Shown here in pieces: positions 15,384-49,324 of a DNA stretch of 64,000 nt. Under the pieces are notes generated by a model, which saw only the letters and a list, made by a program, of their open reading frames with translations, was not told where the DNA came from and searched no databases. Source of the DNA: Paeniglutamicibacter sulfureus (GTDB lineage: Bacteria > Actinomycetota > Actinomycetes > Actinomycetales > Micrococcaceae); contig NZ_BAAAWO010000001.1 in the NCBI RefSeq assembly GCF_039535115.1, positions 3,844,001-3,908,000 of the forward strand, read 5' to 3'. Position 1 is the stretch's first letter, and each line of letters opens with the position of its first letter. Both the position numbers and the translations under genes were made by a program.

Positions 15384-15389
15384 GGGTTG

Positions 15390-15431
15390 AATTATCCAAC
15401 ACAGAGGGCCGTGTTGGGCAAATCATCCAAT
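15390..15431. promoter_or_regulatory. Operator region between pucR-type gene and aminotransferase
   Basis: CCAACAC (15396-15402) and GTGTTGG (15411-15417) form a perfect inverted repeat with an 8-base spacer. AATTATCCAA (15390-15399) and AATCATCCAA (15421-15430) are direct repeats exactly 31 bases, about three helical turns, apart. Both features fit a multimeric activator bound between the divergent starts. Confidence 0.5.
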
Positions 15432-15465
15432 GACGCGTGTCACGCTCTCGCATAACGTGGAGCGC

Positions 15466-16827
15466 ATGACCGAAACACTTCTGGCCGTCGACGCCGAGAC
15501 GCTCCCGCAGACCCGCCACCTCGCCACCTCCATCCCCGGCCCGCGCTCCACGGCCATGCACGCCGAACGCACAGCACAGGTGACCAACGGCTTCGGCATC
15601 ACCCTGCCGGTCTTCGTGGCCCGCGCGGACGGCGGCATCGTCGAGGACGTCGACGGCAACCGGCTCATCGACTTCGCCTCCGGCATCGCCGTGACCTCGC
15701 TGGGTGCCAGCAACAAGCGCGTGGCGCAGCGTGTAGCCGCCCAGCTGGAAGCCTTCACCCACACCTGCTTCATGGTCACCGAATACGAATCCTTCACCCA
15801 GGTCTGCAAGTGGCTCAACGCCAACACCCCCGGCGACTTCGACAAGCGCACCGGCCTGTTCTCCACCGGCGCCGAGGCCGTGGAAAATGCCATCAAGATC
15901 GCCCGCGCTGCAACCGGACGGCCCAACGTGCTGGTGTTCGACGAGGCCTACCACGGCCGCTCGCTGCTCACCATGGCCATGACCGCCAAGGTCAACCCGT
16001 ACAAGCTGAACTTCGGCCCGCTTCCCGCGGAGATCATCCGGGCCGCCTCCGCCAATCCGCTGCGCCCCGCAGAGGGGCTGGCCGCAGGCGCCGAAGCGGC
16101 ACTGGAATCCGTGGAGGCCACCATCCTGGAACACGGCGCGGATTCCTTCGCCGCCATGGTCATCGAACCGATCCAGGGCGAGGGCGGCTTCATCGTCCCG
16201 GCCGCAGGCTTCATCCCGGGCCTGCGCAAGCTCGCCGACAAGTACGGCATCGTGCTGGTCATCGACGAAATCCAGGCCGGCATGGGCCGGACCGGAACGC
16301 TCTTCGCCTCCGAGCACGAGGGCGTTGCGGGGGACATGATCCTCACCGCCAAGGCACTGGCCAATGGCGTCCCGCTTTCCGCCGTCACCGGACGCACCGA
16401 GCTGATGAACGCGCCGCACGCGGGCGGCCTGGGCGGCACCTATGCTGGAAACCCGCTGGCCTGCGAGGCCGCGCTGGCGGTCTTCGAGCAGTTCGAGGAC
16501 GGATCGCTGCTGGCCAACGCCCGCCGCATCGAGGCAGTGGCCCGCGAAATCCTGGAGCCCTTGCTTTCTTCCACCGGCATTGTGGCCGAGGTCCGCGGCC
16601 GCGGCGCCATGCTCGCCATCGAGCTGGCAGACGCCGGCACCCTGGCCCCGCGCGCGGACCTGGCCAAGGAAATCTCCGCTGCCTGCCACGCCGCCGGCGT
16701 CATCACCCTGACCTGCGGCACGCACGGCAACGTCGTGCGCCTGCTGCCCCCGCTGGTGATCGGCGAGGACCTGCTGCGCGACGGACTGGCCGTCCTGGCC
16801 CAGGCCATCATCGACGCCGCCAACTAG
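15466..16827 (+). CDS. Class III omega-aminotransferase (GABA / 5-aminovalerate type)
   Basis: 453-residue PLP enzyme moving a terminal amino group to 2-oxoglutarate, giving succinate or glutarate semialdehyde. PLP lysine is Lys296 in LTAKALANG. The cofactor aspartate is in LVIDEIQAG (267), and the STGAEAVENAIKIAR phosphate-binding block is at 133-147. Overall it resembles GabT/DavT. The following glutaryl-CoA-type dehydrogenase favours 5-aminovalerate as substrate, but GABA cannot be excluded. TAACGT at 15453-15458, 7 bases before the ATG, suggests leaderless transcription. It leads an operon with the next two genes (48- and 29-base gaps). Confidence 0.9.
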   Translation: MTETLLAVDAETLPQTRHLATSIPGPRSTAMHAERTAQVTNGFGITLPVFVARADGGIVEDVDGNRLIDFASGIAVTSLGASNKRVAQRVAAQLEAFTHTCFMVTEYESFTQVCKWLNANTPGDFDKRTGLFSTGAEAVENAIKIARAATGRPNVLVFDEAYHGRSLLTMAMTAKVNPYKLNFGPLPAEIIRAASANPLRPAEGLAAGAEAALESVEATILEHGADSFAAMVIEPIQGEGGFIVPAAGFIPGLRKLADKYGIVLVIDEIQAGMGRTGTLFASEHEGVAGDMILTAKALANGVPLSAVTGRTELMNAPHAGGLGGTYAGNPLACEAALAVFEQFEDGSLLANARRIEAVAREILEPLLSSTGIVAEVRGRGAMLAIELADAGTLAPRADLAKEISAACHAAGVITLTCGTHGNVVRLLPPLVIGEDLLRDGLAVLAQAIIDAAN

Positions 16828-16875
16828 CCCCCTTCATCAGCCCCATACCCCCCCCCGAACTTTTTGGAGAACACC

Positions 16876-18069
16876 ATGACCCTCACCATCCATGACCACG
16901 AAACCCACCAGTTGGACCCGGCGGACCTGATCAACTTCGATGCGCTGCTCACCGCCGAGGAGCTCGCGCTGCGCTCCAAGGTCCGCACCTTCGTCGACGA
17001 GGCCATCAAGCCGAACATCGCTTCCTGGTACGCCGATGCCGTCTTCCCGCTGGAGATCGTCCCGGAAATGGCGAAGCTCGGCCTGCTGGGCATGCACCTG
17101 AATGGCTACGGCTGCGCCGGGGGCACCGCGGTGGAGTACGGCCTGGCCGGCTCCGAACTGGAGGCCGGGGACTCGGGGCTACGCACCTTCGTTTCGGTGC
17201 AGGGATCCCTCGCCATGAGCGCGATCTACAAGCATGGTTCCGAGGAGCAGAAGCAGGAGTGGCTGCCGAAGATGGCAGCGGGGCAGGCCATCGGCTGCTT
17301 CGGGCTCACCGAGCCGACCGCCGGCTCGGACCCCTCGGCGATGAAGACCTTCGCCCGCAAGGACGGGAACGACTGGGTCATCAACGGCACCAAGCGCTGG
17401 ATCGGGCTGGCCAACGTCGCCCAGGTCGCGGTCATCTGGGCGCAGACAGATGAGGGCATCCGCGGTTTCGTGGTCCCCACCGAAACGGCCGGGTTCGAGG
17501 CGACCCCGATCGAGCCGAAGCTCTCGATGCGTGCCTCGATCCAGTGCGAGATCGAGCTGACCGATGTGCGCCTGCCCGCAACCGCGGTGCTGCCGAACGT
17601 GGTGGGGCTCAAGGGACCATTCTCCTGCCTGAATGAGGCTCGCTACGGGATCATCTGGGGCGCCATGGGAGCCGCCCGCGACTCCTTCGAAGACGCCCTG
17701 GCCTACTCGCAGCAGCGCATGCAGTTCGACAAGCCGTTGGCCGGGTACCAGATGACCCAGCAGAAGCTGGTGGACATGGCCTTGGAGATCAACAAGGGCT
17801 ACCTGCTGGCGTTGCACATCGGACGCATGAAGGACGCCGGAACCCTGGATCTGCACCAGATCTCGGTGGGCAAGCTGAACAACTGCCGCGAGGCCATCAA
17901 GATCGCCCGCGAGGCCCGCACCATCCTGGGCGGCAACGGCATCACCCTGGACTACTCGCCGCTGCGCCACGCCAACAACCTGGAATCGGTGCGCACCTAC
18001 GAGGGCACCGACGAGGTCCACACCCTGATCCTGGGCAACAAGCTCACCGGCGTCCCTGCCTTCCGCTAA
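16876..18069 (+). CDS. Glutaryl-CoA dehydrogenase-type acyl-CoA dehydrogenase
   Basis: 397-residue FAD enzyme of the acyl-CoA dehydrogenase family. FAD-contact motifs are GCFGLTEPTAGSDP near 139-152 and the C-terminal RTYEGTDEVH, whose Glu376 is the probable catalytic base. LNEARYGIIWGAMGAA and the QQRMQFDKPLAGYQ block match glutaryl-CoA dehydrogenases, which also decarboxylate to crotonyl-CoA. The ATG at 16876 lies within reach of the TTGGAGA ribosome site (16864-16870). Sandwiched between the aminotransferase and semialdehyde dehydrogenase genes, it supports a glutarate route rather than plain GABA breakdown. Confidence 0.87.
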   Translation: MTLTIHDHETHQLDPADLINFDALLTAEELALRSKVRTFVDEAIKPNIASWYADAVFPLEIVPEMAKLGLLGMHLNGYGCAGGTAVEYGLAGSELEAGDSGLRTFVSVQGSLAMSAIYKHGSEEQKQEWLPKMAAGQAIGCFGLTEPTAGSDPSAMKTFARKDGNDWVINGTKRWIGLANVAQVAVIWAQTDEGIRGFVVPTETAGFEATPIEPKLSMRASIQCEIELTDVRLPATAVLPNVVGLKGPFSCLNEARYGIIWGAMGAARDSFEDALAYSQQRMQFDKPLAGYQMTQQKLVDMALEINKGYLLALHIGRMKDAGTLDLHQISVGKLNNCREAIKIAREARTILGGNGITLDYSPLRHANNLESVRTYEGTDEVHTLILGNKLTGVPAFR

Positions 18070-18098: not shown

Positions 18099-19559
18099 AT
18101 GACCGAAACCATGACGCACACCGATACCGTGCCGCTGCGCCTGCTCATTGACGGCGAATGGATCGACGGCGCCGGTGCGGGCCTGGAATCCACCTCGCCC
18201 GCCGATCCCGGGCACGTGGTTGCCGCCGGCGGCACCGCCACCGAGGCCGACGTGCGCTCCGCCATGTCGGCCGCACGCGCGGCGGCAAGCGGCTGGGCTG
18301 CAACGCCCATGGCCGAGCGCGGCTCGTACCTGGCCCGTGCCGCGGCGATCATCACTGCCAACGCCGATGCATGGGGCGCCGAGCTGGCCCGCGAGGAAGG
18401 CAAGACCGCGGCGGAAGGCAAGGGCGAGGTGCTGCGCGCGGCCCAGATCCTTACCTACTATTCGGCCGAGGGCGACCGGCTGGCCGGGGATGTCTTCTCC
18501 TCCCCGCGCCGCGGCGAGCAGATCCTGGTCACCCGCAAGCCGCTGGGCGTCGTGGGCGTGATCACCCCGTTCAACTTCCCCATCGCCATTCCCGCATGGA
18601 AGATCGCCCCGGCGCTGGTCTTCGGCAACACCGTGGTGTGGAAGCCTGCCTCCACCGTGCCGCTGCTGGCCCTGCGCCTGGCGCAGGCACTGGTTGAGGC
18701 GGGGCTGCCGGCGGGCGTGCTGAACCTGGTCATCGGACCCGGTTCGCTCGGCAACGAGATCGTGAACCACCCCGACCTGGACGGACTCACCTTCACCGGA
18801 TCCACCGGGGTGGGCAGGAAGCTCGCCGCGGCGGCCGCCGCGGCCGGAGTCCCGATCCAGGCGGAAATGGGCGGCAAGAACGCCTCCGTCGTGCTGGATG
18901 ACGCGGATGTGGAACTCGCAGTGGAGCAGGTGCTCTTCGGGGCCTTCCGCTCCACCGGCCAGAAGTGCACCGCCACTTCGCGGCTCATCCTGCAGGAGGA
19001 AATCGCCGATGCGTTCCTGGCACGCTTGCACGAACGCCTCAGCGAGTGGAAAACCGGGGACCCGACGGATCCCTCCGTCCACATGGGGCCGGTGGTCTCG
19101 GGCCCGGCCGCGGAGCAGATCCGTGCCGGCATCGCCGCCTCGATCGCCCAGGGAGCGGTCGTCACCTTCGAGGGCGATGTCGCGGGCCTGGGGGATGCCT
19201 TCGTGGCCCCGACGGTCCTTGAGCTGCCCGCCGGGGAGAACAATGCCTGGAGCGAGGAGTTCTTTGGCCCCGTGCTGGCAGTGCGCAGGGTGGCAACCAC
19301 CGAGCAGGCGTTCGAGCTGGCCAACGACTCCGAATACGGCCTGAGTTGTGCGCTGTTCACCCAGGACCTTTCCAAGGCGCTGGCGGCCATGGAGAAAATC
19401 GACGTGGGCATCTTGCACGTGAATTCGGAATCGGCGGGCGCCGACCCGCACGTGCCCTTTGGCGGGGCCAAGAAGAGCGGGTACGGGCCCAAGGAACAAG
19501 GCGGCGCGGCGAAGGAATTCTTCACGCACACCACCACGGTGTACCTGCGCGGAGCGTAG
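18099..19559 (+). CDS. Semialdehyde dehydrogenase (aldehyde dehydrogenase superfamily)
   Basis: 486-residue NAD(P)-dependent aldehyde dehydrogenase. Catalytic Cys290 lies in STGQKCTATSR, general base Glu256 in QAEMGGKN, and the Rossmann-type FTGSTGVGR at 232-240. The C-terminal VPFGGAKKSGYGPKEQGGAAKEFF resembles 2-oxoglutarate-semialdehyde and succinate/glutarate-semialdehyde dehydrogenases. In context it should oxidise glutarate semialdehyde to glutarate (DavD role). An AGAGGCAAG ribosome site precedes the ATG. It ends the three-gene operon at a hairpin. Confidence 0.88.
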   Translation: MTETMTHTDTVPLRLLIDGEWIDGAGAGLESTSPADPGHVVAAGGTATEADVRSAMSAARAAASGWAATPMAERGSYLARAAAIITANADAWGAELAREEGKTAAEGKGEVLRAAQILTYYSAEGDRLAGDVFSSPRRGEQILVTRKPLGVVGVITPFNFPIAIPAWKIAPALVFGNTVVWKPASTVPLLALRLAQALVEAGLPAGVLNLVIGPGSLGNEIVNHPDLDGLTFTGSTGVGRKLAAAAAAAGVPIQAEMGGKNASVVLDDADVELAVEQVLFGAFRSTGQKCTATSRLILQEEIADAFLARLHERLSEWKTGDPTDPSVHMGPVVSGPAAEQIRAGIAASIAQGAVVTFEGDVAGLGDAFVAPTVLELPAGENNAWSEEFFGPVLAVRRVATTEQAFELANDSEYGLSCALFTQDLSKALAAMEKIDVGILHVNSESAGADPHVPFGGAKKSGYGPKEQGGAAKEFFTHTTTVYLRGA

Positions 19560-19571
19560 GAAACGAGGTTT

Positions 19572-19693: not shown

Positions 19694-20575
19694 ATGAGCG
19701 CAGAGACCGGCATCGAGAACATTTCCACCATCCTGGTCATTGGAGCGGGGACCATGGGGCGGCAGATCGCGATGACCGCTGCCCTGGCCGGGTTCGCGAC
19801 CATCATCCAGGATATTTCCGCCGACGGCCTTGCCGCGGCGCGCACCGAGCTCGAGGGTTGGGCGGCCTCGCGGGTGGCCAAGGGCAAGCTGGAGCAGGCG
19901 ACAGCCACCGCGGCGCTGGAGGCGCTTGGCTACAGCACCGACCTGGACTCCGTCGCGACAAAAGCCGACTTCATCATCGAGGCCGCCACCGAGCGCCTGG
20001 ACATCAAAACGCAGATTTTCGAGAAGCTCGGCGTGCTGGCACCGGCCCACGCCATCCTGGCCACGAATTCCTCGACCCTCGGTTCCTCCAAGGTCGCCGA
20101 GGCTACAGGCCGGCCCGCACAGGTGTGCAACATGCACTTCTTCAACCCGGCCCTGGTCATGAAGTGCGTGGAGGTCGTGCGCCACGAAACCACCAGCGAT
20201 GCAACGGTGGAAACCACCATGGAACTGGCGCGGCGCCTGGGCAAGGAGCCGGTGCTAATCAATCGCGAGGTCCCCGGATTCATCGCCAACCGCCTGATGG
20301 GCGCGATCCAGCGCGAGGCGCTCTTCCTGGCCGAATCGGGCATCGCCAGCATCGAGGACATCGACACCACCGCCCGCACGGCGCTGGGCCACCCGATGGG
20401 TCCGTTCGCGCTGATGGACTTGGTGGGCCTGGATGTCATCGACTTCATTGCCCAGGCCACCCACGCGGAAACCGGCGCGGTCGAGGACGCCCCCAACGAG
20501 CGCATCGCGGCCCTGGTGGCCGAGGGCAAGCTGGGACGGAAGTCGGGCGCCGGGTTCTACGACTACAAGGGGTAG
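19694..20575 (+). CDS. 3-hydroxybutyryl-CoA dehydrogenase
   Basis: 293-residue NAD(P)-dependent enzyme oxidising (S)-3-hydroxybutyryl-CoA to acetoacetyl-CoA. The dinucleotide motif GAGTMG is at 17-22. The catalytic-site segments are LATNSSTLGSS near 123 and MHFFNPALVMKCVEVV with His148. The C-terminal domain contains GHPMGPFALMDLVGLDV. Length is that of the single-function Hbd/FadB2 type. It completes the crotonyl-CoA end of the glutarate route; the intervening enoyl-CoA hydratase is not in the window. No strong ribosome site is visible. Confidence 0.9.
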   Translation: MSAETGIENISTILVIGAGTMGRQIAMTAALAGFATIIQDISADGLAAARTELEGWAASRVAKGKLEQATATAALEALGYSTDLDSVATKADFIIEAATERLDIKTQIFEKLGVLAPAHAILATNSSTLGSSKVAEATGRPAQVCNMHFFNPALVMKCVEVVRHETTSDATVETTMELARRLGKEPVLINREVPGFIANRLMGAIQREALFLAESGIASIEDIDTTARTALGHPMGPFALMDLVGLDVIDFIAQATHAETGAVEDAPNERIAALVAEGKLGRKSGAGFYDYKG

Positions 20576-33015: not shown

Positions 33016-33035
33016 GGGGTGCAGCTCCCAACTAA

Positions 33036-33052: not shown

Positions 33053-33102
33053 AAACTGTCGCCTACCTTATCTGTGGGCGGAGTCACACGCAAGGGGTTT
33101 TG

Positions 33103-38042: not shown

Positions 38043-39560
38043 GTGTCCATAGAGTCACGTAAAGTACCTGAGGCCTCATCGCATGTGCATGACGAGGACG
38101 CCGCTCACCTGGCATCTCTCGGCTACGAGTATGAAGCCCAGTTCAAGCGAGAAATGACGTTCTGGGGGAACGTCTCGCTGGGGTTCACTTACTTATCGCC
38201 CGTGGTGGGAATTTATTCTCTCTTTGCGATCGCATTGGGCACCGCGGGGCCCCCGATGTTTTGGTCATTGCTCATAGTTGGAGCCGGGCAGATGTTCGTC
38301 GCCATGGTCTTTGGTGAAATCGTGTCGAACTACCCGGTGGCCGGCGGAGTCTACCCGTGGTCGCGACGCCTGTGGGGCCGCAAGTGGGGTTGGATGAATG
38401 GCTGGGTTTACCTTGTCGCGCTTCTGACGACGATCGCCTCCGTGGCTTACGGTGCGGGCCCGTATCTTGCGGCCTTCCTCGGAATGGAAAGCAGTGTCGA
38501 CGCGACCATCGTGGCGGCCTTGGTCATTATCGCGCTGGCAACCTGCCTCAACCTGCTCGGCACCGGCGTATTGAACAAGGTTGCCATGCTCGGCTTGATC
38601 GCAGAACTCGGCGGTGCCGTCGTCGTGGGCCTCTGGTTGATTATCGGACACCGCAACCATGACCTAGGCGTACTCTTTGAAACCTTCGGCGCCGGTGAGG
38701 GGTCCGACTACTTCGTGGCCTTCGCGGCAGCAGGATTGATAGGCATCTTCCAGTACTACGGCTTTGAGGCCTGCGGCGACGTTGCGGAAGAAGTCCCGAA
38801 CCCAGGTCGCACCATCCCCAAGGCCATGCGCATGACAATTTACATTGGGGGAGCGGCAGCGATGTTTGTCTGTCTCTCGCTCATCCTCGCCGTCCCCGAC
38901 TTCGGTGCAGTGATTTCAGGTGCCGACTCCGACCCGCTCGTGGGCGTTCTGATGGCGGCATTTGGCCCTGTTGGATACAAGGTCGTGCTCGGGGTGGTGT
39001 TGGTTTCCTTCGTCTCATGCGTCTTGAGCCTCCAGGCTGCTGCGAGCCGTCTGACCTACTCCATGGCCCGGGACGGAATCCTGCCATGCAGTTCCCTGCT
39101 GAGCCGATTCAGCGATCGCCGCCACGTACCTCCGTATGCGCTGCTGATCGCCGGTGTGTTTCCCGCGCTGGTCGTGATCGGTTCCAAGATTTCCGAAGAT
39201 GCGCTGGTCGCCATCATCTCCTTCGCGGCCATGGGAATGTACCTGGGATTCCAAATGGTCGTGCTTGCCTCACTGCGGGCCAGGCTCAAGGGCTGGAAGC
39301 CTGCAGGCAAGTACCAGCTAGGTCGCTGGGGCGTTCCGGTCAATGTGATGGCCCTACTGTGGGGCGTACTGGGCATGATCAACATGGCCTGGCCGCGGAC
39401 ACCGGAAGCCGGATGGTTCGCCAACTACATCGTCTTGATTTCCTCGATCTTCGTCCTTGGAATCGGGGGGCTGTATCTGGCGCTTCGCAAGCCCCACCTC
39501 AAGGGAGACGCCCCCGCCGCGGATGCCTGCAGCGCTCCCGCAACAGTCGGCGGAAGCTAA
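38043..39560 (+). CDS. APC-superfamily amine/amino acid permease
   Basis: 505-residue permease with about 12 helices, of the GABA-permease/amino-acid-transporter type. Characteristic segments are FTYLSPVVGIYSLFAIAL near 55-72, YPVAGGVYPWSRRLWG near 100-115, FQYYGFEACGDVAEEVPNPGRTIPKA near 235-260 and SRLTYSMARDGILP near 340. GTG at 38043 is chosen because AAGGAG lies 5 bases upstream; the frame extends further upstream but without protein character. It is first in the P450 cluster (71-base gap) and probably imports the amine to be degraded. Confidence 0.88.
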   Translation: MSIESRKVPEASSHVHDEDAAHLASLGYEYEAQFKREMTFWGNVSLGFTYLSPVVGIYSLFAIALGTAGPPMFWSLLIVGAGQMFVAMVFGEIVSNYPVAGGVYPWSRRLWGRKWGWMNGWVYLVALLTTIASVAYGAGPYLAAFLGMESSVDATIVAALVIIALATCLNLLGTGVLNKVAMLGLIAELGGAVVVGLWLIIGHRNHDLGVLFETFGAGEGSDYFVAFAAAGLIGIFQYYGFEACGDVAEEVPNPGRTIPKAMRMTIYIGGAAAMFVCLSLILAVPDFGAVISGADSDPLVGVLMAAFGPVGYKVVLGVVLVSFVSCVLSLQAAASRLTYSMARDGILPCSSLLSRFSDRRHVPPYALLIAGVFPALVVIGSKISEDALVAIISFAAMGMYLGFQMVVLASLRARLKGWKPAGKYQLGRWGVPVNVMALLWGVLGMINMAWPRTPEAGWFANYIVLISSIFVLGIGGLYLALRKPHLKGDAPAADACSAPATVGGS

Positions 39561-39631
39561 AAGCGCGAAGCCACGATCAACCGTTGGGCGACCGCCCAAG
39601 AAGTCCAGTACCACCACGAAAGGATCGCACC

Positions 39632-40843
39632 ATGAGTGTCGAAACCGCCCCGAACCAACTCAACGTCCCCTATCTCGACATCTCGGATCCGAGCTTCGCC
39701 ATGCAGTCCGAAGAGCTCCGCAATGCCCGCGAGGCCAGCTGGTATGCAAAGACCAACTACGGCATCGCCGTGTTGCGCTACGACGAAGTCAGCAAGCTGC
39801 TCAAGAGCCCCAAGCTCATCCAGGGCAGTGCCAAGTGGCCCGCCCACAACGGAGTGCATGGCGGACTGTTCTTTGACTGGTGGACCAAGAATCTGCTCGT
39901 GTTGGAGGGCGAGGACCACCACCGGATCCGGCGTTTGCTCAACCCGGCCTTTTCCCCGCGGCTGATCAAGGACCTGGTTCCACGCTTTCAGGCGCTGGCT
40001 AACGAACTCATTGACGAATTCATTGACAGCGGCTCCTGCGAGTTCATCGGAGATTTCGCCGAACCGTATGCCACCCGCGTGCTGACCATCTTGTTGGGCA
40101 TTCCGGAAAGCGAATGGCCGACCATTGCCCGGCTTGCCTCCACCATAGGTCTGGCACTTGGCGTCACCTTCAAACAGGACCTGGACAAGGTCGACGCGGC
40201 GGTGGCCGAGTTGTACGCCTACGCCGAAGACCTCATCAAGGACCGCCAAGCAAACCCGGGCGAGGATTTTGTCTCCCGGCTGGTCCTGGCCAGCCGGGAC
40301 GGCGACAAGCTTAACGACGAGGAACTGCGCAACGCACTGGTGCTGCTGATTTTCGGGGGCATGGACACCACCCGCAACCAGCTAGGGCTGGCCATGCAAT
40401 CCTTCATGCGCAACCCGGAGCAGTGGGAATTGTTGTCGGCGCGGCCGGAGCTCGGCGCCAAGGCCGTCGAAGAGGTCATGCGCATCAACCCAACCGTCAC
40501 CTGGGTAACCCGCGAGGCAGTCGAGGACTTCACCTATCAGGGACTTGAAATCGCCGCCGGCACCACCGTGCACCTATTCACCCAGGCTTCCGGCACCGAT
40601 CCGCTCGCGTTCCCCAACCCCGAACTGGACCTGCTTGGTGAGCACCCCGCCCACTACGGGTTCGGCGGCGGAGTACACCACTGCCTCGGTCACTTCGTGG
40701 CCCGTGCCGACATGAGCGAGGCACTTCCGTTGTTGGCCAGCCGCCTCGGCAACCCGCACCTGACTGGCGGGGACGAGTGGCTGCCCGACTCGGGCAACAC
40801 CGGTCCGATTCGGCTACCCATCGGTTTCACCAAGCGCAACTAG
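39632..40843 (+). CDS. Cytochrome P450 monooxygenase
   Basis: 403-residue soluble class I P450. The I-helix oxygen-activation motif GGMDTT is at 242-247, the ExxR pair is Glu281/Arg284, and the haem loop FGGGVHHCLG has Cys351 as ligand. It receives electrons from the ferredoxin and reductase encoded next. The neighbouring gamma-glutamyl ligase and hydrolases point to an amine substrate. The gene order matches mycobacterial pipA/morA clusters (CYP151) for secondary cyclic amines, though membership of CYP151 was not tested. A GAAAGGATC ribosome site precedes the ATG. Confidence 0.93.
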   Translation: MSVETAPNQLNVPYLDISDPSFAMQSEELRNAREASWYAKTNYGIAVLRYDEVSKLLKSPKLIQGSAKWPAHNGVHGGLFFDWWTKNLLVLEGEDHHRIRRLLNPAFSPRLIKDLVPRFQALANELIDEFIDSGSCEFIGDFAEPYATRVLTILLGIPESEWPTIARLASTIGLALGVTFKQDLDKVDAAVAELYAYAEDLIKDRQANPGEDFVSRLVLASRDGDKLNDEELRNALVLLIFGGMDTTRNQLGLAMQSFMRNPEQWELLSARPELGAKAVEEVMRINPTVTWVTREAVEDFTYQGLEIAAGTTVHLFTQASGTDPLAFPNPELDLLGEHPAHYGFGGGVHHCLGHFVARADMSEALPLLASRLGNPHLTGGDEWLPDSGNTGPIRLPIGFTKRN

Positions 40844-40895
40844 GCTCCACGCGCCTCCCCACCTCACCACCAGCAGCAAGGAAACGAGCTCCACC

Positions 40896-41087
40896 ATGGC
40901 ACAAATCACCGTTGACCGTAAACTATGCGACAACCATGGCCAGTGCGCCATCGCAGCCCCGAAAGTCTTCACGATGAACGACGAAGGCATCCTCGAATTC
41001 GAGGAGTCCTTCGATGACGCATTGCTGGACGAGGTCGAGGAAGCCATCGATGTGTGTCCCGTCCAAGCCATCTTCGTGCAGGACTAA
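40896..41087 (+). CDS. Small P450-type ferredoxin, probably [3Fe-4S]
   Basis: 63-residue ferredoxin. The cluster ligands are Cys11, Cys17 and Cys54 (CDNHGQC and CP). The position that would hold a fourth Cys is His14, the pattern of actinobacterial P450 partners with a 3Fe-4S or His-assisted cluster. It shuttles electrons from the reductase to the P450. An AAGGAAA ribosome site at 40878-40884 lies 11 bases upstream. The reductase gene starts 2 bases after its stop. Confidence 0.92.
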   Translation: MAQITVDRKLCDNHGQCAIAAPKVFTMNDEGILEFEESFDDALLDEVEEAIDVCPVQAIFVQD

Positions 41088-41089
41088 CG

Positions 41090-42319
41090 ATGGGTCAGCG
41101 GATCATTGTCGCCGGCGCTTCGCTCGGGGGACTGCGCGCCGCAGAACAGCTGCGCGCTGCCGGGTGGGAAGGAGAAATCCTGGTCGTCGGGGAGGAAGCG
41201 CATCCTCCCTATAACCGTCCTCCGCTCTCCAAGGACGTCCTGGCAGCACCGGGAACACCCGAGGAGGCCCTTGCCAAGCTGGCCTTCCGGCCACGGCGCA
41301 GTGCCACCGGAATCCAGTGGCGCTTGGGGACGCGCATTGCTGCTTCCAATCTCACCGACCGCACCATCACCCTCAACGACGGGGAAGAACTTGGTTTCGA
41401 CGGTTTGGTGATTGCCACGGGGTTGCGTCCGGCCCGCGTTGAGGCCCCCGGACCCTTGAGCGGTCGACACGTCTTGCGCAGCATCGATGACGCGCTGGCC
41501 CTACATGCGGTGCTCCTGCCGGGAACCCGGGTAGCGGTGATCGGCTCGGGGTTCATCGGATGCGAAAGCGCGGCCACCGCGGCCTCGCTGGGCTGCGCAG
41601 TGACCCTCGTGGAGGGACGCACTGGCCCCATGGAGCGACCTCTGGGATCGGCACTTTCCGCCGGGGTGCGGGAAATGCTCTCGCGTCGCGGTGTGGACTG
41701 CCGGGAGGCGGTCTCCGTGGTCGCCTATCGGGGAGAAGGAGCCTGCACCGGCATCGAGCTTTCCGACGGCAGCACGGTGTCTGCGGACGTGATCATCGAG
41801 GCCGTGGGATCCCATGCCAATGTCGAATGGCTGCAGGGAAACGGACTGGACCTCGGCGACGGCGTGGAATGCGACAGGTACCTGCGCGTCCTAGCCGTCG
41901 ACGGGCAACCGGTGCCCGGCGTTGTGGCCGTCGGAGACATTGCGCGGTACCCCGATGTCCGCAACGGGCTGCCCGCCCGGCGCGTGGAGCACTGGGCGAC
42001 GCCCACCGACACTGCCAAGATCGCCGCCCCCGCGCTAATCGCCGGGATCGTCGGCCGGACGCCGGCAGAGGCCCCCGCCCCGCTTCCGTCTTTCTGGACC
42101 GAGATCTTCGGAACCCGGATCAACGGCGTCGGTTCCCCTGCCCTCGCCGAGGAAACCCGAATCCTGGAGGGCGACCCCGGCCAGCCCCAGGAGGGAGTCG
42201 CGGTGGGCTACTACCGCGGGAACACGCTCATAGGCGTCGTCAACGCCGGCTTGCCGGCATCGCGGCACTTGCATTACCGCCAGCTCGTGCTCGACGCCGG
42301 CGTACTTGTCACCAACTAA
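41090..42319 (+). CDS. FAD-dependent ferredoxin reductase
   Basis: 409-residue pyridine-nucleotide-disulfide-type reductase like those of P450 and dioxygenase systems. The FAD motif is GASLGG at 9-14 (a variant GxGxxG). The NAD(P)H motif is VIGSGFIGCESA near 149-160. The second FAD block is VAVGDIARYPD near 285, and a C-terminal FWTEIFGTRINGVG domain follows. It passes electrons from NAD(P)H to the ferredoxin encoded just upstream. P450, ferredoxin and reductase form a complete class I electron chain. Confidence 0.92.
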   Translation: MGQRIIVAGASLGGLRAAEQLRAAGWEGEILVVGEEAHPPYNRPPLSKDVLAAPGTPEEALAKLAFRPRRSATGIQWRLGTRIAASNLTDRTITLNDGEELGFDGLVIATGLRPARVEAPGPLSGRHVLRSIDDALALHAVLLPGTRVAVIGSGFIGCESAATAASLGCAVTLVEGRTGPMERPLGSALSAGVREMLSRRGVDCREAVSVVAYRGEGACTGIELSDGSTVSADVIIEAVGSHANVEWLQGNGLDLGDGVECDRYLRVLAVDGQPVPGVVAVGDIARYPDVRNGLPARRVEHWATPTDTAKIAAPALIAGIVGRTPAEAPAPLPSFWTEIFGTRINGVGSPALAEETRILEGDPGQPQEGVAVGYYRGNTLIGVVNAGLPASRHLHYRQLVLDAGVLVTN

Positions 42320-42347
42320 GACTTCCAGAAGAAACGAGTTGAGTCCC

Positions 42348-43763
42348 ATGACCTTGCAAGCACTGAGAACCGAATCCGACGCCATGCTGGACCGCGAGTC
42401 CTTTTCCCGGCACCAGGCACGCAACCTAGAACCCCAGATCGTCAAGGATCTCGCGGCGAAGATCGAGGCCGCCGGGGTCGAGTACATCTACTACGCGCTG
42501 CCCACCATCGGATCGCGCGTGGTCGCCAAGATGGTTCCCGCCAACCACTTCCGCCGCAACCTGGAAAAGGGAATCTGCTTCCACCGCACGGCGCTATCCG
42601 ACCTCCAAAACGACCGCCATGGAAACCTGATCGGCGGCGGCATCGAGGCCCGCGAGTTCTGGGCCCTGCCGGAGCCCGAATCCTTCGTGGTGCTGCCCTG
42701 GGACACCTCGGTCGCCCGAATCTTCTGCACCGCCTACGAGCCCCCGCACCTGCCGGAGGTCGGCGGTCGACCGCTTGCCATCGACACGCGTTCCCTCCTG
42801 GCACGCACCCACGCGGCGTTCACCGAGCGCACCGGTTTCGAAGTGCGCTCGGGCACCGAACCGGAAATGACATGGGAAGGCCCCGGACTCGAGGTCGTCA
42901 AGCGGCCCGGTTCCAGCCCCGCCTACCAGGTGGAAAACCTCGAGCGCATGCGCCCGATCTACAAGAAGCTCGTCACTTACTCCAAGGCCATGGGCCTGGA
43001 CATGATCGAGGGCGACTACGAGGACGACGGACAGCTCGAACTGAACTGGATGTACGACCGCGTGGAAAACACCGCCGACCGGCTGGTCACCTACCGGCAG
43101 ATCTGCAAGCAGGTAGCCCGCGAGTTCGGGGTCACCGCTTCCTTCATGCCCAAGCCCTACAACGGCCAGATGGGCAATGGCTGCCACCACAACCTCAGCC
43201 TCTGGGACGGGGACACCAACGTCATCGAGGACGCCGGACGTTTGGAACTGCACGTCTCGGAAACCGCGCGGCACGCCATTGGCGGCATGCTGGCCCACGC
43301 CCAGGGATCCATGGCCGTGATGGCCTCCACCGTGAACTCCTACAAGCGGTTCTGGGACGCCGGGCAATTTGCTCCCTCCACCGCCAACTGGGGCCTTGAC
43401 TCGCGCGGCTGCCTGATCCGGATCTCTGCCAACGGCCGGATGGAGTACCGAGTGCCGGACGCGGCGGTGAACCCCTACTTGTCCCACACTTTGCTGATCG
43501 CCTCGATGGAGGACGGGATCAACCGCAAGCTCGAACCGGGCGCTCCCGACGAGGCCTGCGACAACGCGCCGGCGCTCGGTGCCCAGTTGCCGCTGACCCT
43601 CGGCGACGCCATCGGCGCGTTCGTTTCGGACACCTACCTGACCTCGCAGCTGCCGGCGGACCTGGTGTCCATCTACACCAAGCTCAAGGAAGAGGAATGG
43701 GCCCGCTACTGCGGCTCGATCACGGAATGGGACCGCGAAATGTACTGGGAGACGATGCCGTAA
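42348..43763 (+). CDS. Glutamine-synthetase-like gamma-glutamyl-amine ligase
   Basis: 471-residue member of the glutamine synthetase fold in its PuuA/GlnA3-like branch, joining glutamate to an amine with ATP. Metal and ATP motifs are GTEPEM at 169-174, EGDYEDDGQLELNW near 221-234, MGNGCHHNLSLW at 275-286 and NSYKRFWDAGQFAPSTANWG near 330-349. The context (amine-opening P450, two gamma-glutamyl hydrolases) predicts protection or activation of an amine or amino acid product rather than ammonia assimilation. A GS-like gene also follows the mycobacterial morABC/pipABC genes. The ATG overlaps no other gene; GAAACGAG is a weak ribosome site. Confidence 0.9.
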   Translation: MTLQALRTESDAMLDRESFSRHQARNLEPQIVKDLAAKIEAAGVEYIYYALPTIGSRVVAKMVPANHFRRNLEKGICFHRTALSDLQNDRHGNLIGGGIEAREFWALPEPESFVVLPWDTSVARIFCTAYEPPHLPEVGGRPLAIDTRSLLARTHAAFTERTGFEVRSGTEPEMTWEGPGLEVVKRPGSSPAYQVENLERMRPIYKKLVTYSKAMGLDMIEGDYEDDGQLELNWMYDRVENTADRLVTYRQICKQVAREFGVTASFMPKPYNGQMGNGCHHNLSLWDGDTNVIEDAGRLELHVSETARHAIGGMLAHAQGSMAVMASTVNSYKRFWDAGQFAPSTANWGLDSRGCLIRISANGRMEYRVPDAAVNPYLSHTLLIASMEDGINRKLEPGAPDEACDNAPALGAQLPLTLGDAIGAFVSDTYLTSQLPADLVSIYTKLKEEEWARYCGSITEWDREMYWETMP

Positions 43764-44485
43764 TGACAACGCTCAAACTGGCCTGCATCGACGCTGACGC
43801 GCCGCCGCTCTTTTCGCTCCTCGATTCCAACGGACAACGCACCGGATACGAACCGGACGCCGCGAAACTTGTGGCCTCGCGCATGGGCAGGACCATCGAA
43901 TGGGTCGTTATGGGATGGGACGAGATGCTGCCCTCGGTACGCGACCACCAGGTGGATGCGGTGTGGTGCGGACAGGGCATCATTCCCGAACGCCAGGCTG
44001 TCGTAGATTTCACCCGCCCGTATGCGGTCTTCGATGAAACGGTGCTGGTGCGCAAGGGAGACCCTGCACGCACCCCGGCCGACATAGTCGGGTACCGGGT
44101 GGCCGCCATCGATGGCAGCGCCAATATGGCATTGGCTCGAACCTTCGAGGGGGCGATCATCGTTCCCTTCAGCGGGGACACCGTCTATGAAGACATGCTG
44201 GCGGCGGTCGCCGACTCCAGCGTCGATGCCATGGTCGACGATGACGTGGTGCTGGTGCCGCTGGGCGATGACCCGCGCTACGACGTGGCCTTTACCGTGG
44301 CAACCCGCAACGCGTGGGGGATCGGGGTCGCCAAGGACAACCTCTTCCTGCGCGAGGAACTCAACGTTGCACTGGCCGCCGTGATTGCCGACGGCAGCCT
44401 GCGCGAGGTGTGGGACACCTGGATGCCAACGCTCGGTTTTCCGTTGGGGCACAGCCTCGAGGCAATCGCGGGCAGCCGGGCATGA
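43763..44485 (+). CDS. Solute-binding-protein-like domain without signal peptide
   Basis: 240 residues with the family 3 solute-binding fold: LACIDADAPPLFSLLDSNGQRTGYEPDAAKLVA, then VWCGQGIIPERQAVVDFTRPYAVFDETVLVRKGD. These are normally secreted ABC-transporter receptors for amino acids or amines. Here the protein begins directly with the first strand: no signal peptide, lipobox or membrane anchor, and no ABC permease or ATPase nearby. It may act inside the cell as a sensor or carrier, or as an enzyme like cyclohexadienyl dehydratase, which shares the fold. The start codon overlaps the ligase stop (TAATG). Confidence 0.82.
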   Translation: MTTLKLACIDADAPPLFSLLDSNGQRTGYEPDAAKLVASRMGRTIEWVVMGWDEMLPSVRDHQVDAVWCGQGIIPERQAVVDFTRPYAVFDETVLVRKGDPARTPADIVGYRVAAIDGSANMALARTFEGAIIVPFSGDTVYEDMLAAVADSSVDAMVDDDVVLVPLGDDPRYDVAFTVATRNAWGIGVAKDNLFLREELNVALAAVIADGSLREVWDTWMPTLGFPLGHSLEAIAGSRA

Positions 44486-45252
44486 CGGACGGTCCAAGCG
44501 CCGCCCGCCGCCCGCTGATAGGCGTCCCGGGCATGTGGTCGGCCAAGGTGCAGGGCATGCGCTTCGCTGGGGCTGCAGTGGCCGTCGGGGTGCTGGCCGG
44601 CATTGACAGGGCCGGAGGGGAACCTGTGGTCCTGTTTCCGGGCAGCAGCGAGTCGGCGGCCGACCAAGTGGCGCGATTGGACGGGGTGGTCATTCCAGGC
44701 GGCGCCGACATCGACCCGCGCCGCTACGGAAGCGAGCCGGACGAGCACTATTGGCCGGCCGACTACCCGGGACAGGACGACTACGAGGCCGGTCTACTAC
44801 GGGCCTGCCTCGATTCAGGGATCCCGACCCTGGCCATCTGCCGGGGTATGCAATTGCTCAACGTCATCCACGGCGGAACGCTGGTGGGCCATTTGGCACC
44901 CGGCGAGATCCAGCACCGCGGTGCCGAGCACCCGGTGACCTGCGAGCCCGGCACTCTCCTTGCCGCGGTCCTGGGGCATGCCCCGGTGCGTACATCCTCG
45001 TACCACCACCAGGCGGTCGAGCGCATCGGCGCGGGGTTGCGGGTTGCCGCCACGGCGCCGGACGGAGTCGTTGAGGCGCTGGAGGTTCCTGGCGCATCGC
45101 TGCTGGCGGTCCAATGGCATCCCGAGGATCTGGCCGAGGCATCGGCCACCGATCATGCACTTTTCAGCTGGGTCGTCGAGGCAGCCCGGACCCGCCGGGC
45201 CACCGAGTCCCACCGCGAGCAGACGAAAACCTTGGAGGTTTTGAGTTTATGA
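44482..45252 (+). CDS. Class-C26 gamma-glutamyl-gamma-aminobutyrate hydrolase (PuuD-like), copy 1
   Basis: 256-residue glutamine-amidotransferase-fold hydrolase that cleaves gamma-glutamyl amides. The nucleophile is Cys120 (LAICRGMQLLNV) and the pair His213/Glu215 is in QWHPED. IPGGADIDPRRYG near 71-83 is typical of PuuD. It should release glutamate after the ligase-bound amine has been processed. Overlaps with both neighbours (ATGA at each end) show tight coupling. It differs strongly from copy 2, so the two are not a recent duplication. Confidence 0.9.
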   Translation: MTDGPSAARRPLIGVPGMWSAKVQGMRFAGAAVAVGVLAGIDRAGGEPVVLFPGSSESAADQVARLDGVVIPGGADIDPRRYGSEPDEHYWPADYPGQDDYEAGLLRACLDSGIPTLAICRGMQLLNVIHGGTLVGHLAPGEIQHRGAEHPVTCEPGTLLAAVLGHAPVRTSSYHHQAVERIGAGLRVAATAPDGVVEALEVPGASLLAVQWHPEDLAEASATDHALFSWVVEAARTRRATESHREQTKTLEVLSL

Positions 45253-46082
45253 GCACCGATCCACGAGAAGACCGGGTATTGACCCTGGACGAGGTCATCC
45301 CGGAAGGGTTTGACTTGCTTCCCCCGGATGCTCCGCTGGTGGCAGTGGTGGTATCACTGACTTTCCCCGGCATGGTTGGCGAAAGCCACAGGATCATGCG
45401 CGACTTCACTCGCAGTGCCTTCGACCAATTACTCGAAAGCGGTGCCCGCGCTGTGCTGATCGACAGCTCCGCGGCGGACCCACAGGCAGCGCTGGCCGCC
45501 GAGGAAGCCGACGGCGTTTTGTTTCTCGGCGGCGGCGACGTGGACGGGTCGCTGTACGAACTTCAAGGGCCGATCCCCAAGGCCTACGGGGTGGACCGCA
45601 CCGCCGATGAATTCTGCATCGCCATGATCCATCGGACCCTGGAGAAGGACCAACCGCTGCTCGCCATCTGCCGGGGATCCCAGCTTTTGAACGTGGCACT
45701 CGGCGGGACATTGGTGCCGGACATCGTTCCCTCGACCCTGCACCAGGGGCAATCCGGCCAGCCGATGTTCCTCGACGAATGGGTGACTCTCGCCGAAGGT
45801 AGCAAGATCCACGGGATCCTTGGCCATGAGCGAGTCACTGTGCGTTCCGGGCACCACCAGGCCGTGGACCGCGTGGCAACTGACTTGGTCGTCAGCGCCG
45901 TGGCCGACGACGGGATCGTGGAGGGCACCGAGCACCCCGGGAAAACCTGGGTCGTGGCCGTGCAATGGCATCCGGAGGACCGGGACGGATCCGCTGAAGA
46001 CCGCCGCGCGATCATCGGAGCCTTGGTGGAACAGGCCGTTCTGCGGCGCCTGCAACTGGCTCGGCACGCGCAGACTGCCTGA
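45249..46082 (+). CDS. Class-C26 gamma-glutamyl hydrolase (PuuD-like), copy 2
   Basis: 277 residues. The nucleophile is Cys141 (LAICRGSQLLNVALGGT) and the catalytic pair His241/Glu243 (QWHPED). It has an N-terminal extension of about 28 residues not present in copy 1 and a different substrate-side region (GGGDVDGSLYELQGP). It is the last gene of the forward cluster and ends at a hairpin. Presence of two hydrolases suggests two gamma-glutamyl intermediates or heteromer formation. Confidence 0.9.
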   Translation: MSTDPREDRVLTLDEVIPEGFDLLPPDAPLVAVVVSLTFPGMVGESHRIMRDFTRSAFDQLLESGARAVLIDSSAADPQAALAAEEADGVLFLGGGDVDGSLYELQGPIPKAYGVDRTADEFCIAMIHRTLEKDQPLLAICRGSQLLNVALGGTLVPDIVPSTLHQGQSGQPMFLDEWVTLAEGSKIHGILGHERVTVRSGHHQAVDRVATDLVVSAVADDGIVEGTEHPGKTWVVAVQWHPEDRDGSAEDRRAIIGALVEQAVLRRLQLARHAQTA

Positions 46083-46122: not shown

Positions 46123-46827
46123 TTACGCAGGAACCAACATGGACAGGCCCAAGTGCGGGACCGCCAGGGGAACGATCCGGCTTTCGCTGGGCGCGGCCTT
46201 GATCCTTTCTCCCACGAGGTAAGCACCGGAGTTGCCGATGATGACCCGATCACTGGAGTTAAGTAAGGCCGCATGGCCGGGGATCGAGCGCAACGCGGGG
46301 AGGAAGATTTCTTCCAGTGCCCGAACTGTCACGTCATAGCCGGCAACCCCCGCAAACTCGCCATGGATCTTGAAAGGGGCGGTGTGCGTGAGAATGTATT
46401 CGTCGGATCCCAGGTAATCGACATACGGTCCCCAGATGGTTGCCTCGCCGGTCCTTTCAGCGGCGCTGAAGAAGGGAAGATGCTCGTAGTCGTAAAAGCG
46501 CTCGCCATCCGGGTCGAGGTCAAATACCAGTTTTTCGGCCCCACTCGGCCCTGGCGTCCACCACTCGAGGACCCCTTGTCCCTCGCTGATCCGAGCCGAG
46601 GAGAACGTTGCCCCGGACCCAACAGCGAATGAATGCCGCTGCAGGAAATCCGATGCCAGTGCCTTCAACCCGGTCAGATCGTGTTTCGTGACCAGTGCGC
46701 CCGGGGTGACATCTCGAGTAAGCAGGTCGGTGACCGCGGCGGCCATCGCATAGGTGTCGGCCGATGCGTCGTTGAACCACCCGGAGATGGACCCCAACGC
46801 TGCGACTGCCGGTTGGGAGAGACTCAT
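46123..46827 (-). CDS. Stand-alone Cache-domain protein, cytoplasmic
   Basis: 234 residues resembling a ligand-binding Cache sensor domain: GEATIWGPYVDYLGSDEYILTHTAPF is the conserved strand-helix region, preceded by a long helix (about 20-75). Cache domains are usually extracellular parts of chemoreceptors and kinases. Here no membrane helix, signal peptide or output domain exists. Its ATG overlaps the end of the gntR gene by 4 bases, so both are co-translated. It could present or sense the amine ligand for the regulator; this is inference. Confidence 0.72.
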   Translation of the reverse strand: MSLSQPAVAALGSISGWFNDASADTYAMAAAVTDLLTRDVTPGALVTKHDLTGLKALASDFLQRHSFAVGSGATFSSARISEGQGVLEWWTPGPSGAEKLVFDLDPDGERFYDYEHLPFFSAAERTGEATIWGPYVDYLGSDEYILTHTAPFKIHGEFAGVAGYDVTVRALEEIFLPALRSIPGHAALLNSSDRVIIGNSGAYLVGERIKAAPSESRIVPLAVPHLGLSMLVPA

Positions 46828-47573
46828 TGGTTTTCCTTCAAATCGGTGGAGTAGCTCAGTGCCAGCTTCGTATCAATGAGGTGGTGCGTGCTGCGTCGGA
46901 TATGGTCAATCACCAATTGCTGCCCTTGTTGGCTGCGGTTTTCGGACACGGCCCGCACCAGTGCCAGGTGTTCCGCGGTGGCCCGTTCCGCATCAAACTC
47001 ATCGACCAACGGTGACCACAACACCTCCACCGTTTCGGCTTGCAACCGAATTTCGGCATTGGCCAGCCGGGTGGATTGGGCAGTCACCGCCAATTCGATG
47101 TGAAAGCGGCTATCGGCCCTTGCCTTGGCCTGGGCGCTGTCGGCCATGACCAACGAGCGGGCCATATCCTGCAGCCTCTCCAGTTCATGCGGCTCGGCCC
47201 GGTCGCATGCCAGGCGGACTGTGGCCGCGGCAATGGCTGACTGCTCGTCGCCCAAATCCCGGATCTCGGCAATCGATGTGGTCATGAGCCACTCTCGCAT
47301 GGCCTCCAACTGGAATTGCGGTTGCTTCAGGATGAAGGTCCCGCCGCTACGTCCGCGCCTGGTCTCGACGATCCCCTGGTCGCGCAGGACGGCCAAGGCG
47401 TCGCGCAGGGTGGCTGCGGCAACGCCGAACATCTCTGACATCTCGATTTCGTTGGGTAGGCGTTCGCCGACGCGCAGCATGCCAAGAGTGATCGCCTTGG
47501 AGATGCGGTTGACGATGGCATCGGAACGTTCCAGATCGGGCAAGGATCGATAGATCTGCGACTGGAAAGACAT
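46824..47573 (-). CDS. GntR-family (FadR/FCD) transcriptional regulator
   Basis: 249 residues. The winged helix spans about 15-80 (GERLPNEIEMSEMFGVAAATLRDALAVLRDQGIV) and an all-helical FCD ligand domain spans about 95-230 with His residues placed for metal or ligand contact (DSRFHIELA, IDHIRRSTHH). ATG at 47573 gives standard length. It faces the P450 cluster. The mycobacterial pip cluster is also controlled by a GntR protein (PipR), which strengthens the parallel. No clear TGGT-N-ACCA operator was seen beside the cluster. Confidence 0.9.
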   Translation of the reverse strand: MSFQSQIYRSLPDLERSDAIVNRISKAITLGMLRVGERLPNEIEMSEMFGVAAATLRDALAVLRDQGIVETRRGRSGGTFILKQPQFQLEAMREWLMTTSIAEIRDLGDEQSAIAAATVRLACDRAEPHELERLQDMARSLVMADSAQAKARADSRFHIELAVTAQSTRLANAEIRLQAETVEVLWSPLVDEFDAERATAEHLALVRAVSENRSQQGQQLVIDHIRRSTHHLIDTKLALSYSTDLKENQ

Positions 47574-48571: not shown

Positions 48572-49324
48572 ATGACCATTACTGCACCTCATACCAGCAC
48601 CGATTTCGCTGTCCACGCGACGGGCCTGACCAAGATCTACGGCGAAGGAACCACGCGCGTCGAGGCCCTGCGCGGCGTCGACGTCTCCTTCGCCCGCGGC
48701 AAGTTCACCGCCATCATGGGCCCCTCGGGTTCCGGCAAGTCCACACTCATGCATTGCCTGGCCGGCCTGGATGATGCCAGCGGCGGGCAGATCTTCATCG
48801 GCGGGACGGACATCTCCAAGCTGAATGACGATGCACTGACCAAGATGCGCCGCGAAAAGGTCGGCTTCGTCTTCCAGTCCTTCAACCTTGTCCCCACGCT
48901 CACCGCGGAAGCCAACATCCTGCTGCCGCTGGCCCTGGCCGGCAAGAAGCACGACAAGGAGTGGCTGCAGACAATCGTCACCACCCTGGGGTTGACCGAC
49001 CGCTTGAACCACAAGCCGCACGAACTCTCCGGCGGGCAGCAGCAACGCGTGGCCGTGGCCCGGGCCCTGCTCACCCGCCCCGAGGTCGTCTTCGGAGACG
49101 AGCCGACCGGCAACCTGGACTCGCGCACCGGCGCCGAGGTGCTCTCGCTGCTGCGTTCCTCGACCCGCGAGATGGGCCAGACCATCATCATGGTCACCCA
49201 CGACGCGGTCGCGGCCTCCTACGCGGACACCGTGCTCTTGATGAAGGACGGCGAACTGGTAGGCCAGCTCGAGGATCCGACCGTCGACACGGTCACCCAG
49301 GCGCTTTCCGGGTTGGGTGCATGA
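48572..49324 (+). CDS. ABC transporter ATPase, MacB/LolD type
   Basis: 250-residue ATPase. Walker A GPSGSGKST is at 50-58, the signature LSGGQQQRVAVARAL at 152-166 and Walker B VVFGDEPTGNLDS near 172-184. The last is diagnostic of the MacB/LolD/FtsE group, which work with FtsX-type permeases. TAACGT at 48560-48565 lies 6 bases before the ATG, suggesting a leaderless message. It overlaps the permease gene by 8 bases. Likely role: export of, or resistance to, a peptide or lipid-like compound. Confidence 0.93.
   Translation: MTITAPHTSTDFAVHATGLTKIYGEGTTRVEALRGVDVSFARGKFTAIMGPSGSGKSTLMHCLAGLDDASGGQIFIGGTDISKLNDDALTKMRREKVGFVFQSFNLVPTLTAEANILLPLALAGKKHDKEWLQTIVTTLGLTDRLNHKPHELSGGQQQRVAVARALLTRPEVVFGDEPTGNLDSRTGAEVLSLLRSSTREMGQTIIMVTHDAVAASYADTVLLMKDGELVGQLEDPTVDTVTQALSGLGA

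Follow-up and report, generated by a model that had tools for sequence, protein, structure and literature searches.

What might an operon do that joins a cytochrome P450 and its redox partners to a glutamine synthetase (GS)-like ligase, a solute-binding protein (SBP) and two gamma-glutamyl hydrolases of the C26 family? This combination lies in a 64,000-nucleotide stretch of Paeniglutamicibacter sulfureus DNA (contig NZ_BAAAWO010000001.1, positions 3,844,001 to 3,908,000; hereafter, the window), part of a 4.57-Mb single-contig genome. A first-pass annotation of the window had read the genes as a degradation system for secondary cyclic amines, related to the mycobacterial pip and mor clusters. 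Homology supports this reading: the P450 is 64% identical to two mycobacterial P450s of the PipA/MorA clade, P0257 and P0273, with which it also shares a group in a phylogenetic tree. We consider it moderately probable that the operon is a complete example of the long-known pip/mor type and that it works by the steps proposed below.

The P450 and its operon

P0257 comes from Mycolicibacterium smegmatis, and P0273 corresponds to UniRef Q5EGS5, which has four Mycobacteriaceae members. The P450 of the operon was identical over 403 columns to that of P. sulfureus As4PL, 65% identical to Gulosibacter molinativorax P0093, 61% identical to a P450 encoded on the Gordonia KTR9 plasmid pGKT2, and 30-31% identical to the two P450s of the isopropylamine (Ipu) clusters of P. 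aurescens TC1. A P450 is assigned to a family when it shares more than about 40% identity with proteins already placed there, and the 64% identity to P0257 and P0273 places the protein in CYP151. P0257 and P0273 were each 53% identical to P0093, which matches the published identities of Gulosibacter BioI/PipA to PipA/MorA of about 53 and 52% (PMC9477822). This match, the species name and the UniRef entry together fit P0257 being PipA and P0273 being MorA.

The first-pass annotation had proposed a phylogeny of the P450 as a check. The tree that we built had 38 rows and left out terpene and fatty-acid hydroxylases; grouping with the mycobacterial PipA/MorA-type P450s, apart from TC1, was recovered, and the terpene or fatty-acid alternative was judged by identities only. 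The TC1 pair split off with support of 100/99, and the remaining CYP151-type rows, including the operon P450 and the mycobacterial P450s, formed one group at 99/97. The backbone within this group was unsupported, and the tree did not show the operon P450 as sister to PipA/MorA. The XplA row had a very long branch, so its placement is meaningless.

All eight forward genes that the first-pass annotation had listed were intact open reading frames of the Pfam families claimed, and the gntR gene is convergent to them on the minus strand, as described (Table 1). That gene list had overlooked a minus-strand gene for a Cache-domain (Cache/PDC) protein, which overlaps gntR; the Ipu analogue and a candidate lower pathway elsewhere in the window had likewise been missed. 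The gaps from the permease gene to that of C26b are 71, 52, 2, 28, -1, -4 and -4 bases. Given these short gaps and overlaps, the eight forward genes look like a single transcription unit. For the permease we preferred the GTG start because AAGGAG precedes it; a longer frame with a TTG start at 37854 is likewise open. The ferredoxin has the pattern C-x2-H-x2-C...CP, which we take to be that of [3Fe-4S] P450 ferredoxins, with C11, H14, C17 and C54 conserved at at least 95% in a 66-row alignment.

Table 1. Genes of the P450 operon, its convergent regulatory pair and the candidate lower pathway, with positions in the window. Fractions are counts among 58 CYP151-type loci.
Feature	Position	Strand	Evidence
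APC-family amine/amino acid permease	38043..39560	+	PF13520, 160.9 bits; GTG start; APC gene near P450 in 49/58 loci
CYP151-type cytochrome P450, 403 aa	39632..40843	+	PF00067; identities; tree
Small [3Fe-4S]-type ferredoxin, 63 aa	40896..41087	+	Fer4_15/Fer4_13; 46/58 loci
FAD-dependent ferredoxin reductase	41090..42319	+	PF07992, 180 bits; 36/58 loci
GS-like gamma-glutamyl-amine ligase (predicted non-ammonia type)	42348..43763	+	PF00120; 55/58 loci
Family 3 solute-binding protein (SBP_bac_3), without signal peptide	43763..44485	+	PF00497; 55/58 loci
C26 gamma-glutamyl hydrolase a (C26a)	44482..45252	+	PF07722, 176.7 bits
C26 gamma-glutamyl hydrolase b (C26b)	45249..46082	+	PF07722, 153.3 bits
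Cache-domain protein, no visible signal or membrane segment	46123..46827	-	PF22673, 30 bits (cut-off 27); 53/58 loci
GntR/FCD (FadR-like) regulator, PipR-like	46824..47573	-	PF00392 and PF07729; 54/58 loci
Class III CoA-transferase (loosely linked)	12645..13850	+	best NCBIfam match succinate--glutarate CoA-transferase, 355 bits (cut-off 750)
GABA-transaminase-like aminotransferase	15430..16827	+	TIGR00700, 485 bits (cut-off 506.65)
Acyl-CoA dehydrogenase	16864..18069	+	Acyl-CoA_dh; FadE-type 256 bits (cut-off 600); glutaryl-CoA dehydrogenase 187 (cut-off 470)
Aldehyde dehydrogenase	18099..19559	+	best NCBIfam match alpha-ketoglutaric semialdehyde dehydrogenase, 472 bits (cut-off 770)
3-hydroxyacyl-CoA dehydrogenase	19694..20575	+	3HCDH_N and 3HCDH

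Conservation of the gene set

A scan of named genomes gave 435 confirmed stretches. We kept the 80 with the highest similarity to a mycobacterial member, a choice that biases the sample towards close relatives. Neighbouring genes, assigned by best phmmer score above 35 bits, were counted at the 58 of these 80 loci whose P450 gene was flanked by 8.5 kb or more in each direction, and the other 22 were dropped. In addition to the genes counted in Table 1, at least one C26 gene was found at 49 loci, at least two at 43, and any aldehyde dehydrogenase (ALDH) at 39; a TC1-like aminotransferase was present at 17, and an ALDH that matched a query from Paracoccus or TC1 with more than 440 bits at 12. 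Because most of the set recurs at most of these related loci, we regard the association as beyond chance.

The first-pass annotation had taken the SBP and hydrolase genes as an Arthrobacter-type extension of the mycobacterial clusters, and this part did not survive the comparison. The locus of M. chlorophenolicum (L078), whose P450 lies beside P0273 in the tree, has the GntR, Cache, P450, ferredoxin, reductase, GS, SBP and C26a genes, and that of M. wolinskyi (L070) has the same genes plus C26b. At L119 we found GntR, Cache, P450, ferredoxin, GS, SBP, C26a and C26b and no reductase of this type. Its genome (P450 97% identical to P0257) served as a stand-in for M. smegmatis, which was absent from the 80 kept loci and was not recognised among the 297 Mycobacterium-genus genomes described next. 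The same kinds of genes thus occur at mycobacterial loci of the PipA/MorA clade, which rules out an extension confined to Arthrobacter.

The P450 was found in 3 of 396 phylum-wide genomes, including its own (E 1e-90; at most four candidates scored per genome), in 34 of 297 Mycobacterium-genus genomes (1e-100; at most six candidates scored for each genome listed), and, with an identity of at least 95%, in 5 of the 13 further genomes of its own genus. Among the 297 Mycobacterium-genus genomes the SBP occurred in 35, namely all 34 with the P450, where the two genes were at most 2.9 kb apart (one pair per genome), and one more (G489); a Fisher test of co-occurrence, ignoring relatedness, gave p of 6e-44. 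The P450 gene of G489 is broken into two reading frames next to the SBP gene, and the neighbouring genes are kept.

Several loci show rearranged or partial forms. In another genome (G443) the CYP151-type gene is also split over two frames with its neighbours kept. In four halomonads (L053, L056, L058, L062) the Cache, GntR, SBP, GS and ferredoxin genes lie on one strand and the ALDH, P450 and reductase genes on the opposite one. Plasmid p2 of Paracoccus sp. TOH (L014, 2085-13478) has two GS genes, two amidotransferases and two ALDHs, and a flavoprotein gene follows its P450 gene in place of ferredoxin and reductase. At the start of L078, a weak GS match accompanies further matches to the SBP and C26a; the group lies upstream of the mor-type cluster and is possibly another gamma-glutamyl module. 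In G147, a genome of the phylum-wide sample (L162, 9608-10687), the SBP gene lies near a HipA-like gene, and no other part of the module was matched within about 10 kb.

A proposed pathway and its alternatives

The Gln-synt_N domain and flap Glu that mark a bona fide glutamine synthetase are both missing from the GS-like protein, which matched PF00120 alone and has F341 where glutamine synthetases carry the Glu of PGYEAP. We take that Glu to be E327, which serves ammonia in those enzymes. The 7cql and IpuC proteins have Trp at this position. The best Protein Data Bank (PDB) relatives of the ligase were 7cql, annotated as a type III glutamate--ammonia ligase and presumably GmaS, and 9qur, a glutamate--methylamine ligase. 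Elsewhere in the genome two genes matched GS more strongly (452 and 399 bits, compared with 239 for the cluster ligase), so ammonia assimilation need not depend on the cluster ligase. From these features we infer a gamma-glutamyl ligase of a non-ammonia type. Both hydrolases keep their catalytic residues at at least 95% conservation (C120, H213 and E215 in C26a, 64-row alignment; C141, H241 and E243 in C26b, 57-row alignment). In relatives, ALDHs resembling PuuC of putrescine degradation accompany these genes: one lies between the C26 genes of a Streptomyces locus (L032; PuuC its best NCBIfam match, 607 bits), and one of the two at the Paracoccus locus also matches PuuC best (576 bits; cut-off 850 for both). 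The idea in the first-pass annotation, that ring-opened products are gamma-glutamylated and later released by hydrolysis, gains support from the conserved linkage of GS and C26 genes and from these PuuC-like ALDHs in some relatives' operons. As a prediction from sequence, that chemistry is plausible and now better supported.

The SBP without a signal peptide is the most novel part of the operon; it is strictly conserved and of the amino-acid-binding type. The protein begins directly at its fold. We scored its conservation on the 120 best of 856 homologues: the motif of the first strand lay 1-25 residues from the N-terminus in 117 (the pattern was not found in 3), 2 were slightly above the 1.8 hydropathy mark, and R77, D160 and eleven further checked positions were invariant in all 120. 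The AF2 model (pLDDT 92.6) matched amino-acid-binding proteins, with 4zv1 the best PDB match (TM 0.81), and R77 and D160 align with an R and a D of AncQR. In LAO/HisJ such a pair presumably holds the alpha-carboxylate and the alpha-amino group. We propose a gamma-glutamyl compound as ligand because such compounds keep their alpha-amino-acid head free. The SBP is predicted to be cytosolic. A role as part of an ABC importer was considered and rejected, as there is no signal peptide and no ABC gene in the operon; the nearest ABC genes (48572-51863) encode an ATPase with a permease of the FtsX type and do not form an importer for amino acids.

The Cache protein is likewise predicted to be cytosolic. 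Its AF2 model (pLDDT 93.7) matched Cache-type ligand-binding domains in the PDB (TM 0.47-0.71, 11-19% identity), among them domains solved with putrescine (McpU), GABA (PctC) and ethanolamine (CqsR). Other listed domains bind ordinary amino acids, so the matches give nothing firm on the ligand. The regulator carries GntR and FCD domains, as expected of the FadR-like regulator of pip/mor clusters; PipR (MSMEG_6700) is a FadR-like GntR regulator (PMC2018728). It is 39% identical to the FCD regulator encoded next to the P450 gene of pGKT2.

The steps that follow, with their order and substrates, are our reading of gene content, homology, conservation and linkage. The APC permease would import the amine (piperidine, pyrrolidine or similar). 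The P450, fed by ferredoxin and reductase, would hydroxylate the carbon next to the nitrogen, and the ring would open to an amino-aldehyde. The ligase would then add glutamate to the freed amino group and so prevent the aldehyde from closing again to the cyclic imine. A PuuC-like ALDH, encoded in some relatives' operons and not in this one, would oxidise the glutamylated amino-aldehyde, and the C26 enzymes would split the result into glutamate and an amino acid, either GABA or 5-aminovalerate. Together with the Cache protein, the GntR regulator may sense the amine or a product, and the SBP may bind a compound with a free alpha-amino-acid head, such as a gamma-glutamyl intermediate. We favour ring opening before glutamylation because MorA with its partners oxidises morpholine itself (PMC9477822).

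We also suggest, tentatively and as a possibility that we hold to be less than even, that in pip/mor-type operons the SBP and the Cache protein, once extracellular, have become cytosolic, where the SBP would hold gamma-glutamylated intermediates by their free glutamate head and the Cache protein, as the partner of PipR, would be a soluble sensor of amines. As to its function, the SBP would then be a carrier, a buffer against toxic aldehydes or an enzyme. If so, it would be a dedicated part of gamma-glutamyl catabolism, present in 34 of the 34 P450-bearing Mycobacterium-genus genomes sampled, and in the two signal-less proteins two very common sensor folds would serve a new purpose.

Genes for a possible 5-aminovalerate/glutarate operon lie at 12645-20575, together with a PucR regulator gene. 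They fit, without proving, a lower pathway from piperidine via 5-aminovalerate and glutarate. At 20 of the 58 loci, at least three of the first four genes were found in the fetched flanks, and the window's aminotransferase as query had a match at 24. The four genes adjoin the P450 operon in Arthrobacter (L035, L040, L055) and at several Mycolicibacterium loci, and at L101 a GABA transaminase beside the cluster exceeds the cut-off of TIGR00700 (552.5 compared with 506.65). Between the two amine operons of the window lie xanthine-dehydrogenase-type genes with XdhC (21173-25901) and, on the minus strand, genes for an amidohydrolase and a second amino acid permease (30014-33093).

Other accounts of the same genes were weighed against ring opening followed by glutamylation. 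In the order assigned to the Ipu pathway, glutamylation of the amine comes first, before the P450 (PMC6776027). Applied here, the P450 would hydroxylate a gamma-glutamyl amide, a C26 enzyme would free an amino alcohol, and the substrate would be a primary alkylamine. TC1 has similar parts on pTC1 and pTC2, and C26a is 38-39% identical to two TC1 amidotransferases. The low identity of the TC1 P450s, which form a tree group of their own, the GS identity of 26-30% and the oxidation of free morpholine by MorA all tell against this order, which we judge unlikely. Less likely still is N-dealkylation, in which the P450 would dealkylate an acyclic amine, secondary or tertiary, and leave a primary amine for the ligase and hydrolases to process. 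The ligase's resemblance to 7cql and 9qur would suit it, but the nearest P450s of characterised function have cyclic amines as substrates (PMC9477822), and the PuuC-like and GABA-transaminase-like neighbours in relatives suit omega-amino acids, not methylamine.

That the operon is a biosynthetic tailoring cluster instead of a catabolic one seems very improbable. The top PDB sequence match of the P450 was 3p3l (249 bits; the next, apart from variants of 3p3l, reached at most 171), which we take to be AurH of aureothin biosynthesis. The P450 is nevertheless 64% identical to proteins of the PipA/MorA clade, no biosynthetic core gene was seen among the Pfam-annotated genes of the cluster, and the permease, hydrolases and regulator look catabolic.

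Cyclic amine catabolism by the proposed steps has points against it too. None of the curated NCBIfam models listed exceeded its cut-off on any cluster gene, and the same is true of the lower-pathway genes of the window. We found no ALDH gene in this operon, including between its C26 genes; the nearest homologue of the PuuC-like ALDH in the genome is unlinked and 51% identical. A single hydrolysis step leaves the presence of two C26 enzymes unaccounted for, and a reductase gene was present at only 36 of the 58 loci. None of the candidate lower-pathway genes was found at 29 of the 58 loci, where the flanks reach only about 10 kb, which is also why the window's own genus scores none in this count. 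The CoA-transferase gene was present in all 13 other genomes of the genus, 8 of them without a close P450 match, which weakens the case that the lower pathway proves a C5 substrate; where both exist (in this and five other genomes) the two genes are 17-36 kb apart. In Gulosibacter, molinate brought no significant overexpression of the second cluster's P450 (pipA), and the published comparison was of minimal medium with molinate against LB (PMC9477822).

Comparison with known systems

The Puu pathway of putrescine degradation, with PuuP, PuuA, PuuC and PuuD, shares the logic of an APC permease, a gamma-glutamyl ligase, a C26 hydrolase and, in some relatives of the operon, an ALDH. It differs in using an amine oxidase where the operon has a P450. 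The equivalog models for PuuA (NF045547, 195 bits on the cluster ligase, cut-off 650) and PuuD (NF008471, 92 and 55 bits on the C26 genes, cut-off 266) stayed far below their cut-offs, and a PuuC-type ALDH is absent from the operon.

The Ipu clusters of TC1 have a similar parts list. Both pTC1 and pTC2 carry genes for an amidotransferase, a P450, a ferredoxin, a reductase, IpuC and a permease, each with a counterpart in the operon. In the fetched Ipu regions no match above 30 bits to the SBP or the Cache-GntR pair was found. With P450 and ligase identities as low as those given above and a separate tree group, membership in the Ipu system was rejected.

On the hexahydro-1,3,5-trinitro-1,3,5-triazine (RDX) plasmid pGKT2, GntR, Cache and CYP151-type genes stand just upstream of XplA. 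The P450 gene there is presumably cyp151C. Compared with the operon, the GS of this plasmid is 56% and its Cache protein 29% identical, in addition to the P450 and regulator identities given above, and its fetched region gave no SBP or C26 match. At 11307-13751 of the plasmid locus (L013), a shortened GS of this ligase's family forms an in-frame fusion with the XplB reductase. A pip-type cluster seems to have been put to new use on RDX plasmids.

The bioI/pipA clusters of G. molinativorax, which probably act on azepane from molinate, share a CYP151-type P450 (P0093, 65% identical, is BioI or PipA). By locus tags, GS and reductase genes stand beside the P450 gene (PMC9477822). G. molinativorax also has an SBP homologue, P0159, 61-64% identical to the operon SBP. 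The system differs in that its substrate is probably a seven-membered ring and in that transcripts have been published for it, the sole expression evidence we found for a relative of the operon. In molinate medium, bioI and its reductase gene were up by more than 6 log2 units, and the GS genes GMOLON4_438/3052 were overexpressed (PMC9477822).

The pip and mor clusters of mycobacteria (piperidine, pyrrolidine, morpholine) are also among the closest known systems. Like them, the operon has a CYP151-type P450 (at 64% identity), a 3Fe-4S-type ferredoxin and a GS-like gene in one unit, together with a FadR-like GntR regulator. The layout differs: gntR and the Cache gene are convergent and downstream here, and at L119 they lie upstream of the P450 gene in the same direction. 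Piperidine, pyrrolidine, morpholine and azepane originate from industry and herbicides. To our knowledge, no role has been proven since 1999 for the GS-like gene that pip and mor clusters carry. Among the literature matches listed, from a search outside which most subscription journals lay, we found no description of gamma-glutamylation, C26 enzymes or an SBP in these clusters, and in the literature searched the whole conserved set, C26 genes, SBP and Cache protein included, appears to be undescribed. This set of ligase, C26 enzymes, SBP and Cache protein, with a PuuC-like ALDH in some relatives, gives the GS-like gene a specific and testable job, and it suggests that the published pip/mor clusters are part of a longer operon.

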